Below, piece by piece: positions 5,006 to 31,263 of a stretch of DNA of 64,000 nt. This DNA comes from Flavobacteriia bacterium (GTDB lineage: Bacteria > Bacteroidota > Bacteroidia > Flavobacteriales_D > Crocinitomicaceae): NCBI GenBank assembly GCA_016183815.1, contig JACPDW010000008.1, positions 1 to 64,000 on the forward strand, given 5' to 3'. A program made the translations under genes and the position numbers. Every line of letters begins with the position of its first letter. The first letter of the stretch is position 1. The notes beneath the pieces are model-generated. The model did no database searches, was not told where the DNA came from, and saw only the letters and a program-made list of their open reading frames with translations.

Positions 5006-6136
5006 TTACAATCTTCTATCAAGTTTTTTAAGCATTTGATTTTTCCATGACAAAAAAGTACCTTCTAAAATATTTTTTCTTGCTTCTTTCACTAATTCTA
5101 GGTAAAAATTTAGGTTATGTATCGAAGCAATTTGCATGCCTAAAAATTCATTACTTTTAATTAAGTGACGAAGATAAGCTTTGGAATATCTTTTATCTGA
5201 ATAAGCTGTACTTTTTTCATCAATTGGGCTAAAATCATGTTCCCATTTTTTATTTTTAATATTGATCGTACCTTCAGAAGTAAAAAGTAAGCCATGTCTA
5301 GCGTTTCTTGTTGGCATTACACAATCCATCATGTCAATTCCTCTGTGAATACTTTCTAAAATATTTGAGGGAGTTCCCACACCCATTAAGTATCTTGCTT
5401 TTTCTTTTGGGAGAATTTGACAAACCAAATCCGTCATTTGATACATGTCTTCTGCTGGTTCACCGACGGATAAACCACCAATTGCATAACCAATGGTATC
5501 ATGTTTTATAACTGTTTCTGCTGAGATTTTTCTTAAATCAGGATAGGTACTTCCTTGAACAATTGGAAAAAAAGCTTGTTGATAAGAGTAAAGTGGAGTA
5601 GAGGATGAAAAATATTCCATACAACGGTCTAACCATCGGTGGGTCATTTCCATAGATTTTTTCGCATAATCGTAAGTGCAAGGATAGGGAGTACATTCAT
5701 CAAAAGCCATGATAATATCTGCACCAATTATTCTTTGAATTTCGATAGATTTTTCAGGAGTAAATTCGTGATAACTTCCGTCGTGATGAGATTGAAAACG
5801 TACACCGTGTTCTTTAATTTTATTAGAAGAGGATAAAGAATAGACTTGATAACCACCACTATCTGTTAAAATTGGTCTGTCCCAGGAGATAAAGGAATGT
5901 AAACCACCTGCTTTATGTAGCGTTTCAATCCCTGGTTTTAAATAAAGATGATAGGTGTTGCCTAAGATAATTTGAGCATTAATTTCGTTTTCCAATTCCT
6001 GTTGATGCACAGCTTTTACAGTACCAGCAGTCCCGACTGGCATAAAAATTGGTGTTTCAATTTTTCCATGATCTGTATGAATAATTCCAGCTCGTGCATT
6101 GGATTGTTTATCATGGTGTAAAACTTCAAAGTGCAT
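5006..6136 (-). CDS. tgt: tRNA-guanine transglycosylase (queuine tRNA-ribosyltransferase)
   Basis: This 376-residue TIM-barrel enzyme exchanges G34 of GUN-anticodon tRNAs for a queuosine precursor. Visible motifs: LTDSGGYQVYSLS with the active-site Asp, AFDECTPYP, GGLSVGE, and MGVGTPSNILESIHRGIDMMDCVMPTRNARHG with the nucleophilic Asp. The usual zinc site CxCxxC is missing: after SPIDE the sequence is KSTAYSDKRYSKAYLRHL, with no cysteine, although the later His (ASIHN) remains. I recall other Bacteroidota Tgt proteins also lacking it. First gene of the tgt-lptG cluster, with its own promoter at 6160-6191. Confidence 0.93.
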   Translation of the reverse strand: MHFEVLHHDKQSNARAGIIHTDHGKIETPIFMPVGTAGTVKAVHQQELENEINAQIILGNTYHLYLKPGIETLHKAGGLHSFISWDRPILTDSGGYQVYSLSSSNKIKEHGVRFQSHHDGSYHEFTPEKSIEIQRIIGADIIMAFDECTPYPCTYDYAKKSMEMTHRWLDRCMEYFSSSTPLYSYQQAFFPIVQGSTYPDLRKISAETVIKHDTIGYAIGGLSVGEPAEDMYQMTDLVCQILPKEKARYLMGVGTPSNILESIHRGIDMMDCVMPTRNARHGLLFTSEGTINIKNKKWEHDFSPIDEKSTAYSDKRYSKAYLRHLIKSNEFLGMQIASIHNLNFYLELVKEARKNILEGTFLSWKNQMLKKLDRRL

Positions 6137-24399: not shown

Positions 24400-27300
24400 A
24401 TGAGTAATATAACACAAAAAATCAAAACACTACAAGCTGTTTATCCACAAGTATATTCATACATATTACCTGAACTACCTCCAAATGATGGCTCTCAAAA
24501 AATTGGATATACCGAATTACAAGATGTACACGAAAGGATTCGACCCCAAGTAAATACACCGGCATTTAAGTTAGAGTACGAATTGTTGTGGAGTGCTCCT
24601 GCTTTTTACAAGAATAAGAAAGACAGTTTTATTGACAAGACTTTTCATAAATTTCTAGTTAAAAAGGGAATTATTAAAAAAGATGATTTAGGTACAGAAT
24701 GGTTTTATTTCAATGGTGAACCAGAAAAGTCAAAAGAATTATTTGATTTATTCCGAAAAGAAGGATTTGCAGCACTACAAAACGATAATGGAAAGATAGA
24801 TTACAAATTACGAGAAGAACAAGAAGAAGCTGTAGTAAAAGCCCTAGAATACTTTCAAAACAATAATAAAGGAGAATTTCTCTGGAATGCAAAACCACGA
24901 TTTGGAAAAACACTTGCAAGTTATGACTTAGCGAAGCGATTGAATGCAACTAAAGTACTTATTTTAACAAACAGACCAGCCATTGCAAATTCATGGTTTG
25001 ATGATTATGAAATGTTTCTTGATGGATATTCTTTTATATCTACTGCTGACTCTTTAAAAAACAGAAAAGCTATAACGAGGGAGGATCACATTGCAATAAA
25101 GCCAATAAAACCTCAATTAACATTCCTTTCTTTACAAGATTTAAAAGGGTCTAAATATTTTGGAGGACCTTATGATAAATTACGTTGGGTTGCTGATTTA
25201 GAATGGGATTTATTAATTATCGATGAGGCACATGAAGGAGTAGAAACATTAATAACTAAGATAGCTTTAAAAGTAATTAAACGAAAAAACACCCTTCATT
25301 TATCAGGTACGCCATTTAGGGCTTTAGCAAATCAAAAATTTCCACAAGATGCCATTTACAATTGGACATATTTGGATGAACAAATGGCTAAGCAACAAGA
25401 ATTGGAAGAAGGAGAAGCTGGTGAGCACACGGATTTACCTGACCTTAAATTGTTTACTTATCGGATATCTCAAATGATAACTGATCAAGTAAATGAAGGG
25501 ATTGAAATTGATAATGAAACGCATGATTACGCATTTGATTTGAATGAATTTTTTAGAGTAAAGGATAAAAAATTTGTGCATGAAAATGATGTAAAAGAGT
25601 TTTTAAGAAATCTAACTACGAATAAAAAATATCCTTTTTCTACACCAGAACTTAGAAATGAATTGAAACATACTTTTTGGTTCGTAGGAAATAGAATTAC
25701 ATCTGTGCAAGCACTAGAACAACTTCTAAAAAAAAATCCTGTGTTCAAAGATTATAAGGTCATTGTCGCTGCTGGCAATGGTCAAACTTTTGAAGAAGAG
25801 GCGGATGATATTAAAGGAAACGAAAGCTCCTTAGAAAAAGTAAAAAAAGCAATTGGTGAAAATGAAAAAACTATTACACTTTCATGTGGACAATTAACTA
25901 CTGGTGTTACTATAAAAGAATGGTCTGCTGTGTTAATGTTGACAGATATTAAATCTCCTGCATTATATATGCAAGCTGCTTTCCGTGCTCAAAACGCCTA
26001 CAAGGAAATGAGACAGGATGGGTTGTACATGAAAAAATCAGCGTATCTATTTGATTTTGCACCAACTCGTGTTCTTGAAATTTATGATCAGTTTGCAAAT
26101 GGTTTGAACCCGAAAGCTGTTAAGGGAGAAATAACTGAAAAAGATAGAGAGAATAACATAAAAGAGCTTCTTAATTTCTTTCCAGTTATTTCAGAAGATG
26201 TGAATGGCGAAATGGTTGAATTGGATGCCAACAAGGTGTTAACATTTCCAAATGCTTTGGCAGCAACAGAGATTGTGCAAGCTCGTTTTATGACCAATCT
26301 TTTGTTTAATGATAGCTTAAAAGGCGTATTCAATTTCCCTAAAGAAGTTGAAGATATCTTGGACAAAATGCAGGTAGAAAAAAATAAACGTGTTCAAAAA
26401 TCAAATAACACACTTGATTTAGATGATGCCCGAACTGTAAACAATAACAAATCAAAAGAAATTAATACCAATACTGAAATCATTCTTGGCGAAAAAATAT
26501 TTAAAACGAATACCGAAAGAATAGTTGACAATTTATTGGAAGAGAAAACTGAAGAAATTTATGCAGATGAATTAGTTAAAAAGGTATCAGAGGTTGCTGA
26601 GCCTCTAATTGCTAAGTACAAAGAAGTATATAAAGCAACTCAAGCCGAGACCAACGAAGTAACAAAACAAATTCAAGAAAAAGTTAAACTCATTGCCGAG
26701 GAATACAACAGCGCTGAGATTAAAGATAGTGAAGCTCTTAAACAAAAGCTAATTGAAGCGATCGAAGTGGATTTTATCAATAAAAGTGTAACTCAAAAAG
26801 AAGAAGAGAAAGTTGAAAAAGTACAAAAAACCAAGGAAGAAGAAATTCGAGAAAGGTTGCGTTCTTTTACACGAACAATTCCAATGTTTATTATGGCAAA
26901 TTCTTCAAAAGAAGAAATTACGATTGATAATTTTGATTTAGAAATTGACGAGAATGACTTCATTGAGCTTACAAGTATCAATAAAGAAGAGTTCCACAAG
27001 CTCCGTGATGGTTTTAACTATGTAGAAAATGGGGTACGAAAGACGTTTCAAGGTGTGTTTAACAAATACCGTTTTAATGCATCAATTGCTGAATTTAGAC
27101 TAAAGAAAGAACAATTAGCAAATTATTTTACCTCTGAAGAAGATATCTTTGAGTTAATACCCAACCAAAAAACCAATCAAATTTTTACACCAAAAAAAGT
27201 GGTGCAAATGATGATTAATCAATTGGAAGAGCACGATGCTAATTTATTTAAACGCACAGATAGCACTTTTATTGATCTTTACATGAAATCAGGCATGTAC

Positions 27301-28599
27301 ATCACCGAGATTGTTAAAAAAATATTTAACAATACTCATTCACAATACAAGAGTGATAACGAGTGCTTGAAACATATTTTAGAAAATCAAGTGTATGGGC
27401 TAGCTCCAACACCCATTTTACAAGGTATAACTCAATCTTACATTTTTGGATTTGATGCTGAAAATAAGATTTCTCGGAAGAATTTTATACAACATGACAT
27501 AACTCCAGAAGCTCAGGAAGGAAAAGCAAAACAAAAATTACAAGAACTATTTAATTTAAAAGAAGATATGAAATTCGATTCAGTGGTGGGGAATCCACCT
27601 TATATGGAAATGGATGGTGGTGCTCAAGCTAGCGCTAAACCCATTTATAACTATTTTGTTGAGAGTTCAAAAAAGTTAAACCCAAATTATATTTCTTTAA
27701 TTATGCCCTCTCGTTGGTATTCTGGAGGAAAAGGTCTTGATGATTTTAGAGATGAAATGCTTAACGACAAACGAATTGCTATTTTACACGATTTTTTAAA
27801 CCCTGAAGAAGTCTTTCCAAACACCAACATTCGAGGAGGAATTTGTTATTTTCTTTGGGATAATAATTATGATAATGAGATTAACCTTACAAAAGTATTT
27901 ACACATAAAGCAGGTGAAAAGACAACAGTAGTTCTACGTTCCCTAAAATCTGGAGATTCTCAGACCTTTGTACGATACAATGATGCAGTTTCAATTATTG
28001 AAAAAGTTAATACAAAAAATAATTTTGAGTCATTTTCAAATGCAATATCACCATTAAGACCATTCGGTTTTAGAGGTTTTTTTATTAACGATGAAAAATT
28101 TAGAAGTAGCTCTAAAGATTTGAAAGAGCCTATTGTGTGTTATGGTAAAGGAAAAAAGATTGGATATCTTGAAAGAGATGAAATTAATGTCCGTGATAAT
28201 TGGATTGATAGTTATAAAGTTTTTACACCAAGAGCCAATAATATTGGTACAGAATTGAATGATGATAATTTAAATAGTTTTATTGGAGAGCCAGGTACAA
28301 TTTGTACCGAAAGTTACATTGTAGTTGGTGCTGATTTAAGTCTTGATAAAGTTTCGGCTAATCATTTAAGTAAATATTTAACTACAAGATTTGTAAGGTT
28401 TATGCATAGTTTAGCTAAAGCCAGTCAAGATGCAACTTCTAAAACCTATAAATTTGTTCCCCTCCAAGATTTCACATCAAATTCAGACATCGACTGGAAC
28501 AAAAGCATTGCAGCAATAGACCAGCAGTTGTATGCAAAATATAATTTATCTCCAGAAGAAATTGGGTTTATAGAAAGTATGATAAAACCGATGGAGTAG
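24400..28599 (+). CDS. Single-chain restriction-modification-like protein: GIY-YIG-like nuclease, SF2 helicase, Eco57I-type methyltransferase
   Basis: A 1399-residue multidomain protein. N-terminus (about 15-115): VYSYILPEL.., KIGYTELQDVHERI and GTEWF resemble a T5orf172-type GIY-YIG nuclease (Y19/Y21, K34-T38, R46, E100). Helicase: Walker A-like NAKPRFGKT (163-171), DEAH (275-278), SGTP (302-305), and TTGVTIKEW plus QAAFRAQN as the C-terminal motor motifs. A charged linker (about 650-850) looks coiled-coil. Methyltransferase: FTPKKVV (929), a degenerate SAM motif FIDLYMKSG (957-965), and NPPY (1065-1068), then a target-recognition-like C-terminus. This fits a translocating restriction enzyme of type ISP/IIG style with an unusual nuclease. 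The nuclease call is by eye. Confidence 0.8.
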   Translation: MSNITQKIKTLQAVYPQVYSYILPELPPNDGSQKIGYTELQDVHERIRPQVNTPAFKLEYELLWSAPAFYKNKKDSFIDKTFHKFLVKKGIIKKDDLGTEWFYFNGEPEKSKELFDLFRKEGFAALQNDNGKIDYKLREEQEEAVVKALEYFQNNNKGEFLWNAKPRFGKTLASYDLAKRLNATKVLILTNRPAIANSWFDDYEMFLDGYSFISTADSLKNRKAITREDHIAIKPIKPQLTFLSLQDLKGSKYFGGPYDKLRWVADLEWDLLIIDEAHEGVETLITKIALKVIKRKNTLHLSGTPFRALANQKFPQDAIYNWTYLDEQMAKQQELEEGEAGEHTDLPDLKLFTYRISQMITDQVNEGIEIDNETHDYAFDLNEFFRVKDKKFVHENDVKEFLRNLTTNKKYPFSTPELRNELKHTFWFVGNRITSVQALEQLLKKNPVFKDYKVIVAAGNGQTFEEEADDIKGNESSLEKVKKAIGENEKTITLSCGQLTTGVTIKEWSAVLMLTDIKSPALYMQAAFRAQNAYKEMRQDGLYMKKSAYLFDFAPTRVLEIYDQFANGLNPKAVKGEITEKDRENNIKELLNFFPVISEDVNGEMVELDANKVLTFPNALAATEIVQARFMTNLLFNDSLKGVFNFPKEVEDILDKMQVEKNKRVQKSNNTLDLDDARTVNNNKSKEINTNTEIILGEKIFKTNTERIVDNLLEEKTEEIYADELVKKVSEVAEPLIAKYKEVYKATQAETNEVTKQIQEKVKLIAEEYNSAEIKDSEALKQKLIEAIEVDFINKSVTQKEEEKVEKVQKTKEEEIRERLRSFTRTIPMFIMANSSKEEITIDNFDLEIDENDFIELTSINKEEFHKLRDGFNYVENGVRKTFQGVFNKYRFNASIAEFRLKKEQLANYFTSEEDIFELIPNQKTNQIFTPKKVVQMMINQLEEHDANLFKRTDSTFIDLYMKSGMYITEIVKKIFNNTHSQYKSDNECLKHILENQVYGLAPTPILQGITQSYIFGFDAENKISRKNFIQHDITPEAQEGKAKQKLQELFNLKEDMKFDSVVGNPPYMEMDGGAQASAKPIYNYFVESSKKLNPNYISLIMPSRWYSGGKGLDDFRDEMLNDKRIAILHDFLNPEEVFPNTNIRGGICYFLWDNNYDNEINLTKVFTHKAGEKTTVVLRSLKSGDSQTFVRYNDAVSIIEKVNTKNNFESFSNAISPLRPFGFRGFFINDEKFRSSSKDLKEPIVCYGKGKKIGYLERDEINVRDNWIDSYKVFTPRANNIGTELNDDNLNSFIGEPGTICTESYIVVGADLSLDKVSANHLSKYLTTRFVRFMHSLAKASQDATSKTYKFVPLQDFTSNSDIDWNKSIAAIDQQLYAKYNLSPEEIGFIESMIKPME
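28456..28599 (+). repeat. Direct repeat copy 1: 3' end of the restriction gene
   Basis: The last 144 or so bases of the restriction gene recur at 29788-29931 with roughly nine in ten bases identical by eye. Here the repeat is the functional C-terminus, encoding a conserved tail that ends NLSPEEIGFIESMIKPME. Confidence 0.85.
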
Positions 28600-28630
28600 G
28601 AAGTTCGAAGTGGGAAGTTAGAAATAAATA

Positions 28631-28891
28631 ATGATGAGCAACATAAAATTATTTGAAAGCAAACAAGTTCGTTCCGTGTTCAATGAACAAGAAGAGAAAT
28701 GGTATTTTTCTGTTCAAGATGTTGTACAGATATTAACAGATAGCAGTGATGTAAAGCAATACATAAAAAAAATGCTAACTCGTGATGAGCAGCTTAAAAG
28801 CAACTGGGGTACAATTTGTACCCTAGTAGAAATGAAAGCTGCAGATGGTAAACTTTGTAAAATTCAAATATACGATAAAATCGTACACTAA
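28631..28891 (+). pseudogene. Truncated Bro-N domain gene
   Basis: Encodes 86 residues (or 85 from the second ATG) that match the start of the next gene closely: both begin NIKLFESKQ(V/I)RS and share ADGK-type sequence near residue 75. The Bro-N domain is incomplete: the frame ends after IQIYDKIVH, without the GLLRVIQSIPSPKAEPF part that follows in the neighbour. It is best read as the broken front of a second Bro-N gene, lying 31 bases after the restriction gene. It could still be expressed as a short DNA-binding fragment. Confidence 0.6.
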
Positions 28892-28924
28892 AAAATGACT
28901 GTTTTACATTAAAAATAAATAATA

Positions 28925-29767
28925 ATGAACAACATAAAATTATTTGAAAGCAAACAAATTCGATCTGATTGGAATGAAGAAGAGCAAGAATGGTATTTTG
29001 CTGTTGTAGATGTCGTAGCGGTCTTGACGGATAGTTCTGATCCAAAAGATTATTGGTACAGAATGAAAAAGCGTGAAAAAGTTTCAGGTTTTGAGTTATC
29101 GACAATTTGTCGACAACTGAAATTAGAAGCTTCTGATGGTAAAAAGTATGCTACAGATTGTGCTACTAAAAAAGGATTGTTAAGAGTTATTCAATCCATC
29201 CCCTCGCCCAAAGCCGAACCATTCAAACAATGGTTGGCACAAGTTGGTGCAGAACGCATTGCCGAGATAGAAGATCCAGAACTAGCTCAAGCAAGAATTA
29301 GAGCCACCTACAAAGCCAAAGGATATAGTGACGCGTGGATAGAAAAAAGAATTAGAGGCATACAAGTGCGTGATGAACTCACCAACGAATGGAAAAACCG
29401 TGGTGTAAAAGAAGGGAGAGAATATTCTATTTTGACTGCCGAAATTAGCAAAGCTACCTTTGGCATAATTCCGAGTGAGTATAAAAATTTGAAAGGTTTA
29501 ACCAAAACATCCGAAAATCTTCGTGACCACATGACGGATTTGGAATTAATATTCACCATGCTTGGTGAAGCTTCCACTACCGAAATTGCAAAAAACAAAA
29601 ATGCACAAGGTTTCATAGAAAATCATAAAGCTGCCAAAGCAGGTGGAAATGTAGCGGGAAATGCAAGAAAAGAATTAGAAAAAAAATCGGGAGCAAAAAT
29701 TGTAAGCAAACAAAATTTTAAAAATTTAGACGGTACAAAAGAATTGAAAGACAATGATGAGGAATAA
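28925..29767 (+). CDS. Bro-N / DinD-like phage antirepressor-type protein
   Basis: A 280-residue protein with an N-terminal Bro-N domain (about 5-105: EWYFAVVDVVAVLTDSSDPKDYW.., GLLRVIQSIPSPKAEPFKQWLAQVG). A C-terminal half resembles the DinD/antirepressor C-terminus (about 135-260, with KNLKGLTKTSENLRDHMTDLEL and a Gly/Ala-Asn-rich stretch). Bro-N proteins bind DNA and occur in phages and next to restriction loci, where they may regulate or fine-tune expression. It sits between the restriction gene and a duplicate of that gene's tail, so it moved with or into the locus. The role here is inferred. Confidence 0.75.
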   Translation: MNNIKLFESKQIRSDWNEEEQEWYFAVVDVVAVLTDSSDPKDYWYRMKKREKVSGFELSTICRQLKLEASDGKKYATDCATKKGLLRVIQSIPSPKAEPFKQWLAQVGAERIAEIEDPELAQARIRATYKAKGYSDAWIEKRIRGIQVRDELTNEWKNRGVKEGREYSILTAEISKATFGIIPSEYKNLKGLTKTSENLRDHMTDLELIFTMLGEASTTEIAKNKNAQGFIENHKAAKAGGNVAGNARKELEKKSGAKIVSKQNFKNLDGTKELKDNDEE

Positions 29768-29781
29768 TTTATAAAAACTAA

Positions 29782-29931
29782 AAAATATTTCCCCTCCAAG
29801 ATTTCATATCAAAATCAGACATTGATTGGAGCAAAAGCATTGTTGAAATAGACCAGCAGTTGTATGCAAAATATAATTTATCGCCCGAAGAAATTGGGTT
29901 TATAGAAAGTATGATAAAACCGATGGCATAA
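29782..29931 (+). pseudogene. Orphan duplicate of the restriction gene 3' end
   Basis: The frame FPLQDF..DIDWSKS..NLSPEEIGFIESMIKPMA* duplicates the C-terminal 48 or so residues of the 1399-residue protein. A TAA at 29779-29781 blocks the frame upstream and there is no start codon, so this is a remnant. It shows that a second copy of a related restriction gene, or of its recognition-domain end, once stood here and was lost by deletion or recombination. Confidence 0.85.
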
Positions 29932-29941
29932 AAAAGAAGAA

Positions 29942-30262
29942 ATGGAAGATATAAAATCAATAAATTACCCCCCATTTTTGGAAGAAATACTTTCAAAAAT
30001 ACAGCTGGTGCGGTATGAGATGCTCAAAACTGTGAGCAAACAAACGGTAGCTTTGTATTGGGAAATAGGCAAGGTGGTAAGCCAAAAAGTACAGCAAGAA
30101 AAATGGGGTAAATCAATAGTAGAACAATTATCAAAAAATCTTCAAACGGAGTTTCTGGGCATTCGAGGCTTTTCAGCTCGGAATATTTGGAACATGAAAA
30201 GCTTTTATGAGTATTATACAGAAAATGAAAAACCGCAACCACTGGTTGCAAAAATTGGATAG
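29942..30262 (+). pseudogene. Truncated DUF1016 (YhcG) nuclease gene, N-terminal part only
   Basis: Encodes 106 residues matching the DUF1016 N-terminal domain (ILSKIQLVRYEMLKTVSKQTVALYWEIGKVV.., WGKSIVEQLSKNLQTEFLGIRGFSARNIWNMKSFYEYY). Full proteins are about 340-380 residues and carry a C-terminal PD-(D/E)xK nuclease domain. Here the frame ends LVAKIG followed by TAG where the family usually continues IGWSHN, and no nuclease part follows. It starts 10 bases after the duplicated tail. A broken defence-associated gene; the remaining domain might still bind partners. Confidence 0.72.
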
Positions 30263-30336
30263 GTGCAAAATAAATTGAAATTTAAAATGTGCAAAAAAAA
30301 TCTTAAAAAGAATAATACTTCCGAAAAATAATATAA

Positions 30337-31263
30337 ATGACAGTAGAAAAATTTCAACATAACATCGACATCAGAGAAGATTATCTTCTAAAAAAAAACC
30401 ATCTGCTCGAGATTCTTTTGCAAGATAAAACCACAGGTAATAATATTTTGTGGGCTACAGATTCTTATGAGCAAAAAGGTAAAAAGTTTGCTCCACTTGC
30501 TCCTATAACCTCTGATTTGGTAACAGGTAAAAATGGGAATTTAATTCAACCTCGTGCCGTAAAAAGTAAAGAAGAGCAACTTTTAAGAACAAGAGATAAA
30601 GCAGAGGTATTCACACCGGTTGGAATTGTAAAACAAATGAATGATGCTTGTGATACTTCGCAAATAACAAAAAATAACTGGCAAGAATACATTGCCTTAT
30701 TAAAATTAGAAATCACATGTGGTGAAGCACCTTTTATTGTCTCTCGTTATGATCCTGTTTCTGATAAGCAAGAATTATTACCATTAATTGAACGTGTTGG
30801 ATTTTTAGATAAAAAATTAAGTGTTGTGTCTAAATACTGCGATATGCAAGAAGAATGGATAAAATGGTCTAAAATTGCCTTTCAAAGTTCATACGGTTAC
30901 GAATGGCAAGGGGATAGTTTACTAATTGCTCGAGAAAATCTTCTTTATACTTTTATTGATTATTATGAAGATAAATTTAAAGAAACACCAAACCTTGAAC
31001 TTCAAAAAGAAATTGCTGAAATAATAGTTTGGAACATCTTTCAAATGGATGGTTTAAAGTATGTAATTCCTATGAGTTGTAAAACAGAGACCATCACTAT
31101 CAAAGGAGTAGAAACTTTATTTGGCAAAGAAAATGACCATGTAGAAGAAAAACCATGTAAAGGTTGCGAAAACAAAACGGCTAAAAATCATAATGGCATT
31201 TATGTGCAAATAAAGGATTGGAAAGAAGATAAAATTATAAGATTTGTAGATAATGTAAGTTGA
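30337..31263 (+). CDS. Methyltransferase-like 'restriction endonuclease subunit M' family protein
   Basis: A 308-residue protein that I recognise as the family often labelled restriction endonuclease subunit M and often found downstream of large Eco57I-type genes. It has AEVFTPVGIVKQM (about 89-101), like the FxxP motif of gamma-class adenine methylases; LEITCGEAPFIVSRYDP (about 127) in place of SAM motif I; WQGDSLLIARENLL (about 195); but no NPPY. A C-terminal CKGCENK motif could bind metal. It may be a partner of the 1399-residue protein, for example in recognition or assembly, rather than an independent methylase. Confidence 0.7.
   Translation: MTVEKFQHNIDIREDYLLKKNHLLEILLQDKTTGNNILWATDSYEQKGKKFAPLAPITSDLVTGKNGNLIQPRAVKSKEEQLLRTRDKAEVFTPVGIVKQMNDACDTSQITKNNWQEYIALLKLEITCGEAPFIVSRYDPVSDKQELLPLIERVGFLDKKLSVVSKYCDMQEEWIKWSKIAFQSSYGYEWQGDSLLIARENLLYTFIDYYEDKFKETPNLELQKEIAEIIVWNIFQMDGLKYVIPMSCKTETITIKGVETLFGKENDHVEEKPCKGCENKTAKNHNGIYVQIKDWKEDKIIRFVDNVS

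Follow-up and report, generated by a model that had tools for sequence, protein, structure and literature searches.

A candidate restriction-modification family in which the catalytic half of a methyltransferase may be made in two forms from one coding sequence

The locus and its genes

The stretch of DNA analyzed here, referred to as the window, comprises 64,000 nucleotides of contig JACPDW010000008.1 from a Flavobacteriia bacterium (assembly GCA_016183815.1) and harbors two genes of a candidate ATP-dependent restriction-modification system, in which one half of a methyltransferase may serve both the cutting and the protecting activity. Both open reading frames (ORFs) lie on the forward strand, at the positions given in an initial annotation that was made from the sequence alone. 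The large ORF (24400..28599) encodes 1399 residues, ordered as a GIY-YIG nuclease domain, a superfamily 2 (SF2) motor, a linker, and two methyltransferase-like parts termed PN and CH. The small ORF (30337..31263) encodes a 308-residue protein termed SM. The nuclease domain, of the T5orf172 type, occupies residues 1-126 (24400..24777) and the helicase-like motor residues 131-660 (24790..26379). PN, a degenerate S-adenosylmethionine (SAM)-binding half, spans residues ~913-1056 (27136..27567) and carries NQIFTP at 926, DLYMKSG at 959, and YGLAPTP at 999. CH, the putative catalytic and target-recognition half, consists of residues 1057-1399 (343 residues; 27568..28599), and its first codon, an ATG at 27568..27570, is the proposed internal translation start of a free catalytic half. 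SM is the putative functional SAM-binding half, in which AEVFTP lies at 89, EITCGEAP at 125, and YGYEWQGD at 186, and NPPY is absent.

Pfam assigns residues 135-307 of the large protein to ResIII (E 1.7e-14) and residues 996-1139 to Eco57I (7.9e-28), the latter confirming the proposed Eco57I-type methylase region with its NPPY at 1065. The 308-residue protein has no Pfam match, and neither protein is matched in NCBIfam or in a sequence search of the PDB.

Nuclease domain and motor

The SF2 helicase motifs reported in the initial annotation are present, as the ResIII match is accompanied by RFGKT, DEAH, and SGTP at 167, 275, and 302; the match points to a DNA-translocase domain in the large protein. 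Pfam returns nothing for the N-terminus of the window's protein itself; in the N-termini of five out of six relatives, T5orf172 (PF10544) scores above the gathering threshold (E 1.5e-5 to 1.1e-10). The layout Y..KIGxT..R..E is the catalytic layout of GIY-YIG nucleases. The corresponding residues Y19, K34 (in K34-I-G-x-T38), G36, T38, R46, H83, and E100 are invariant in all 21 aligned sequences; in a 55-row alignment K34, G36, and E100 remain invariant and the others, including Y19, T38, and R46, are conserved in at least 90% of rows. By homology to the matching relatives, the window's N-terminus is assigned to the GIY-YIG/T5orf172 family rather than to the Mrr-like nucleases, as had been proposed. 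Structural comparison neither yields the confident non-GIY-YIG model that, in the initial annotation, would refute the assignment nor fully confirms the fold. The AlphaFold2 (AF2) model of the domain is good (predicted local distance difference test score, pLDDT, 86.4), and the match to known structures is weak: Foldseek against the PDB returns nothing significant, and VIA re-ranking places 7wme, At-HIGLE, first with a weak Z of 5.0 (87 aligned residues, root-mean-square deviation, rmsd, 3.8), the next row having a Z of 3.8. HIGLE is itself a GIY-YIG protein.

Ten relatives without a BLAST match to the GIY-YIG domain (L040-L043, L045, L046, and L054-L057) were considered as candidates for a nuclease swap, and no swap was seen. 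Inspection by eye of eight of these N-termini (all except L045 and L055) finds the same layout in every one, in some after an extra segment, and Pfam on three of them matches T5orf172 in L040 and L042 and not in L054. The extra segment amounts to ~110-170 residues ahead of the GIY-YIG domain in L040, L041, L043, and L046; that of L040 gives a weak DUF4145 match (E 0.074).

A methyltransferase in two halves

The initial annotation placed nuclease, motor, and methylase in a single chain. This is not supported for the methylase, as the SAM-binding half of the large protein is degenerate: in the window's PN, DLYMKSG carries a lysine in place of a glycine and YGLAPTP has lost the acidic residue. 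Among 126 unique PN domains found by domain model, the first glycine of GxG is a lysine in 122, a count to be read in light of the model having been built from members nearly all of which already carry the lysine, and the acidic residue of motif II is lost in 125. The motif I variants in the alignment of the methylase region include DLYMKSG, DPVSKSG, and EINSKTG. Judged by sequence, the methylase of the large protein is not self-contained.

SM displays the complementary pattern. Motif I is intact in 132 of the 137 short forms of SM and the motif II acid in 135, and none of them has NPPY. The long forms, to which the window's protein belongs, carry CGE[AG]P in 43 cases out of 47 and never NPPY (0/47). 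These counts are partly biased, since the patterns used to retrieve some of the loci already contained the motif II acid or CGE. Of the five motif I misses among the short forms, three are truncated at contig ends and the other two have a GxG outside the pattern used. Short SM is homologous to PN (hhalign 98.1%, 7e-14) and long SM to short SM (99.5%). SM is thus more probably the matching SAM-binding half for CH than the helper in recognition or assembly that had been suggested; in three loci (L095, L235, and L241), relatives of the 308-residue protein form one chain with the catalytic half.

The L235 fusion of SM and CH provides a structural view of the joined halves. Its AF2 model is confident (pLDDT 92.2, predicted template modelling score 0.90) and aligns with CamA along both halves (Z 18.7, 412 residues, rmsd 5.0, model range 62-647). 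Both halves also align with MmeI, BrxX, LlaGI, LlaBIII, M.BseCI, and M.TaqI; the Z values against 5ffj and 4xqk (LlaGI / LlaBIII) are 16.2 and 16.1. Since the fusion folds and aligns as a complete adenine methyltransferase, SM plus CH would amount to a complete enzyme at that locus, according to the model. The SM and CH of the window are related to these halves and, when joined, may likewise form a gamma-class methyltransferase.

Arrangement and distribution of the family

A census of 147 loci, one per distinct helicase stretch and with genes on the same strand within 9 kb, reveals how the parts are distributed over genes, although many loci are cut by contig ends. In the following, a slash separates genes, a hyphen joins parts of one protein, and GIY and HEL denote the nuclease domain and the motor. 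SM / PN-CH / GIY-HEL accounts for 57 loci, SM / GIY-HEL-PN-CH for 18, and GIY-HEL-PN-CH / SM for 5; the last is the order of the window, whose own census stretch stops short of SM. CH is an ORF of its own beside GIY-HEL and PN in 11 loci, which comprise SM / CH / GIY-HEL-PN (5), SM / GIY-HEL-PN / CH (4), SM / CH / GIY-HEL / PN (1), and SM-SM / CH / GIY-HEL-PN (1). The three loci in which CH is fused to SM have the order SM-CH / GIY-HEL-PN, and the restriction protein there ends at PN. HEL / CH / SM is found in 8 loci, and the remainder are partial loci or rarer orders.

The large protein is matched by 90 plasmid records, 55 of which have one place covering at least 80% of it, by 14 phage records (three with coverage of at least 80%), and by 34 out of 395 genomes of the phylum, the window's own included. 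An SM-type gene is present in all 17 of the records fetched from the 104 matching plasmid and phage records. The expectation that the two genes are consistently adjacent is therefore borne out in these records, and that of a fixed gene order is not: the small gene lies upstream in most loci, and the window is among the few in which it lies downstream.

Several loci display further variations. The window's genome has a second member in a split arrangement, L063 (3270-10892; G000:C16:251015-252541), with SM, PN-CH, other ORFs, and then a HEL protein. In L101 (2616-8082), a HEL-PN-CH protein is followed by two tandem CH-type ORFs, each with M-P-KFD at the usual place. L225 (7000-12984) and L193 contain SM and a fused GIY-HEL-PN-CH together with two additional CH genes, one of them inverted, an arrangement that may allow the specificity to switch. 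An inversion switch was considered for L225, where only inverted repeats of 26 and 37 nucleotides at the NPPY codons are found, which is not evidence of a switch. In L100 (1192-3171), a stop precedes the last ~60 residues of SM, which continue in frame into CH; the interruption may be a true stop, a frameshift, or a recoding site. L191 has CH and SM with no GIY-HEL protein on the fetched stretch; the pair could be a protective methylase. The phage loci L103, L104, L108, L132, L137, L140, L149, and L324 lack PN and combine HEL with a CH-type ORF and an SM-like gene.

A conserved start codon at the boundary of the catalytic half

The stand-alone CH genes of L047 and L052 start exactly at MKFD..GNPPY, and in L052 the PN frame ends right at the CH start in a stop/ATG overlap. 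Other stand-alone CH genes (L039, L051, and those of several phage contigs) start within a few codons, with F or K rather than M at position -8 relative to NPPY. Where CH is not free, a start codon stands at the same boundary. In a first set of fused or 510-residue forms it is present in 31 of 31 (25 ATG, 3 TTG, and 3 GTG). A set of PN-CH proteins defined by domain models alone comprises 179 ORFs, 106 of them unique, which form 103 clusters at 85% identity and 59 at 60%; L168 and L289, copies of one contig, have no NPPY in the search range and were left out. At 85% identity, 101 of the 103 clusters have a start codon between positions -10 and -7 relative to NPPY, and the codons at exactly -8 are ATG in 89, GTG in 6, TTG in 4, and GTC, ATA, CCA, and AAA in one each. 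In Bacteroidota, the phylum of the window, the 43 fusion clusters have 42 ATG and 1 GTG.

Valine and leucine at -8 are encoded by GTG or TTG in 10 of 11 codons, compared with 2.2 expected from the codon use of each gene (P 3.7e-7, not corrected for relatedness). This count was redone on the set defined by domain models, because rows added by hand to the earlier set (L037, L038, L073, and L112, all GTG or TTG) bias it. Other methionine-rich columns were chosen as a control because one-step mutation from ATG by itself favors GTG and TTG. In the earlier set, hand-added rows included, GTG or TTG make up 7 of 33 valine and leucine codons in columns with at least 50% methionine and 11 of 43 in those with at least 25%. 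An in-frame ATG is also found at the junction of the SM-CH fusions L095, L235, and L241.

In a Shine-Dalgarno (SD) test, the protein is held fixed, synonymous codons are shuffled according to the gene's own use, and pairing with the anti-SD sequence is computed. Outside Bacteroidota (60% clusters, n=38), the mean is -6.1 kcal/mol compared with -3.9 in shuffled sequences (z -6.3, 0 of 500 shuffles), and the share of sites at or below -6 is 0.55 compared with 0.27. Other offsets give a mean z of 0.4 (standard deviation 1.2, minimum -2.5). On these contigs, gene starts that are closely spaced have a mean of -5.9, so that the internal sites are of similar strength. In the 85% clusters outside Bacteroidota (n=60) z reaches -9.0, and the other offsets go as low as -3.7. 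The homologue on a Lactiplantibacillus plantarum plasmid, L037, combines its GTG with an SD-like site.

Possible cassette exchange and neighboring genes

The boundary marked by the start codon is close to a boundary of apparent sequence exchange. The large protein and three close relatives are 65-87% identical through PN and 81-87% within PN. In L032 and L035 the identity falls to 38-40% over residues 1058-1120 and 20-25% over 1121-1330 and is 55% in the last 69 residues, while in L053 it stays at 60-80% across CH. In the methylase alignment, the drop begins just after NPPY, a few codons past the proposed start.

The window holds possible remnants of exchange. A 198-nucleotide direct repeat, 83% identical between its copies, has its first copy at the 3' end of the large gene (28434..28631) and its second, a remnant of a C-terminal end of the large gene, at 29766..29963; within it, the last ~48 codons of the gene are duplicated at ~29766-29926 (161 nucleotides, 89% DNA identity). 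The repeat flanks two BRO-N ORFs, and three extra ORFs in all, of 86, 280, and 106 residues and on the same strand, separate the large gene from that of SM. The 280-residue BRO-N protein (28925..29767), PADLOC candidate PDC-S13, sits between the two system genes. The 86-residue BRO-N fragment (28631..28891) is a partial copy of it and falls below the Pfam cut-off; with a 168-nucleotide repeat that is 74% identical between 28618-28785 and 28909-29076, it seems to have arisen as a truncated duplicate of the beginning of the longer ORF. The third ORF is a 106-residue DUF1016_N fragment (29942..30262; PADLOC PDC-S02), and L053 has a similar C-terminal remnant ahead of a DUF1016-like ORF. The pattern suggests that the window's C-terminal module was replaced in the past together with accessory genes.

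Proposed model and alternatives

The computed part of the argument consists of the domain identities, the degeneracy of PN, the complementarity of SM and CH, the SM-CH fusions, the conservation of the start codon, and the SD signal outside Bacteroidota. The reading favored here, with a probability of roughly 0.7, is an ATP-dependent restriction-modification system in which CH is shared by both activities and is also made from an internal start. SM would be the SAM-binding half of an N6-adenine methyltransferase, with N6-methyladenine as the predicted product, and CH (1057-1399) the other half, containing the catalytic NPPY and the domain that recognizes the target; SM and CH would assemble as the modification enzyme. 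The restriction protein would combine the GIY-YIG nuclease and the SF2 motor with PN, a degenerate copy of the SAM half. PN, which presumably does not bind SAM, would hold a CH where SM would otherwise sit, so that the restriction protein reads the target of the methylase and this reading is uncoupled from methyl transfer. The complete chain (GIY-motor-PN-CH) would bind the target via CH, translocate, and then cut with its GIY-YIG domain. Where CH is encoded fused to PN, it would also be translated alone from codon 1057, and one CH coding sequence would thereby provide restriction and modification with the same specificity. By analogy with the relatives, a free CH may be made in the window's organism and assemble there with SM. 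The conserved internal start would then yield CH in two forms, a free form that protects together with SM and a form behind a SAM-dead decoy of SM that guides cutting, and a swap of CH as a cassette would change both specificities in one step; this account of the family is judged probable.

The alternative that survives best, though it is unlikely, is that SM acts in trans as the SAM half for a CH that is part of the full-length protein, no free CH is made, and the start codon is left over from an ancestral gene border. SM and CH are indeed complementary halves, several loci encode CH separately, and exchange near NPPY could keep re-importing a start codon. Against a relic, synonymous codon choice keeps strong SD pairing at the offset of the start and not at the others tested, GTG and TTG stand in for ATG, and an in-frame ATG is found at the junction in the SM-CH fusions as well.

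It is improbable that the large protein restricts and methylates alone, in the manner of a Type ISP single chain, with the small protein merely assisting. Every domain is present in one ORF with NPPY and motif X intact, and PADLOC classes the protein accordingly: its Type IIG model PDLC03626 matches with 6.4e-106 and a best stretch of 785-1398. However, in nearly all members the chain's own SAM half no longer has motif I or the acidic residue of motif II, the partner is kept in 17 of 17 fetched plasmid and phage records, and CH is fused to SM in some relatives. A purely structural role for the conserved methionine, with SD-like sequences as a by-product of the protein sequence, is equally doubtful: 30 of 37 canonical phage methyltransferases also have methionine here, but the null that fixes the protein and shuffles only synonymous codons gives z -6.3, and GTG or TTG encode 10 of 11 valines and leucines here compared with 7 of 33 or 11 of 43 in other methionine-rich columns.

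Besides the sampling limits given with the PN and SM counts, several observations weigh against the shared, internally started CH. The same frequency of methionine in canonical phage methyltransferases means that part of the ATG conservation may be at the protein level. Two of the 103 fusion clusters, L222 and L202, have no start codon in range; L222 has a GTC with TNPPYD (frame at 5961) and is possibly a decaying copy. In Bacteroidota there is no SD signal (60% clusters, n=21, z 0.7), so the claim of an internal start in the window rests on the conservation of the ATG and on the relatives. The 85% set of this phylum (n=43) gives z -3.3, with values as low as -3.6 at other offsets. Even closely spaced gene starts show little SD in Bacteroidota (mean -1.7). 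The A content of the six bases from -15 to -10 (z 2.3, 1 of 38 other offsets equally high) is too weak a signal. Canonical phage methyltransferases give z -2.2 with no excess of strong sites (0.07 compared with 0.07); these GxG enzymes were dropped as a weak control because their contigs use SD little.

The partnership of the halves is also open to objection. Compared directly, long SM and PN reach only 2%, and the window's SM, which is of the long type, has a motif I (ITCGEAP) that is itself non-canonical. Among the 44 loci that have both GIY-HEL and wide flanks, all except L090 contain SM (43 of 44), a count that includes many loci fetched by SM queries. The eight HEL / CH / SM loci fit poorly: in at least L137, the CH ORF has its own canonical motif I, which makes it a complete methylase with an SM-like neighbor, an arrangement that the model leaves unexplained.

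Relation to known systems

Members of the family are already catalogued in PADLOC. In addition to the Type IIG match, a Type II methyltransferase model matches the large protein at 1054-1398 (6.4e-117) and another such model matches the 308-residue protein (3.4e-93); PDLC03626, PDLC03375, and PDLC03390 between them recognize both proteins as well as the C-terminal half of the large one. Novelty can therefore not rest on the proteins being unknown. These labels describe separate enzymes, and their names imply neither a split methylase nor a shared half. In open-licence PubMed Central, no title or abstract start among the matches listed describes an architecture of GIY, motor, PN, and CH with SM, and no paper was found there that joins an internal start codon with restriction-modification.

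Type IIG enzymes are restriction-modification chains that cut at a fixed distance without an ATP motor, and the large protein differs from them in its SF2 motor domain. In CglI, the nuclease and the helicase are two proteins and no arrangement of PN and CH is known. Type I systems (HsdM, HsdS, and HsdR) resemble the proposed system in their division into SAM binding, target reading, and motor-nuclease and in sharing the target-reading part. The HsdS specificity subunit is not known to contain a catalytic motif, whereas the shared CH includes the catalytic NPPY; the nuclease of the window's system, of the GIY-YIG type, is a further difference. The Type ISP enzymes LlaGI and LlaBIII are ordered as nuclease, SF2 motor, gamma-type methyltransferase, and C-terminal target recognition (PMC3874165). 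The large protein has the same domain order and the modelled SM-CH fusion aligns with both enzymes. In contrast, the nuclease is Mrr-like in Type ISP and of the T5orf172/GIY-YIG type here, and the large chain of the window's family has a degenerate SAM half and a separate SAM-binding subunit. Head-to-head two-site cleavage is a further characteristic of Type ISP. As the class fails, by sequence, on the type of nuclease and on a self-contained methylase, the system is not filed there, although it may work alike.

Internal translation initiation within a restriction gene has a precedent in McrB, where it gives the C-terminal protein McrB-S (PMC12707154). McrB-S withdraws McrC from the active complex, whereas the internally started CH is proposed to be the catalytic half of a methylase.

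Implications

A restriction system must switch the specificities of cutting and protection together or it harms the host. If a half-enzyme is indeed shared through an internal start, one swap of a cassette would change both specificities safely. The close relatives of the large protein are in line with such swaps, as PN is 81-87% identical while CH is ~20-40% identical over residues 1058-1330 in two of the three. If the model is true, the catalogued Type IIG and Type II methyltransferases of this family would be halves rather than complete enzymes, and the assignment of methylome motifs to genes should go to pairs of SM and CH.

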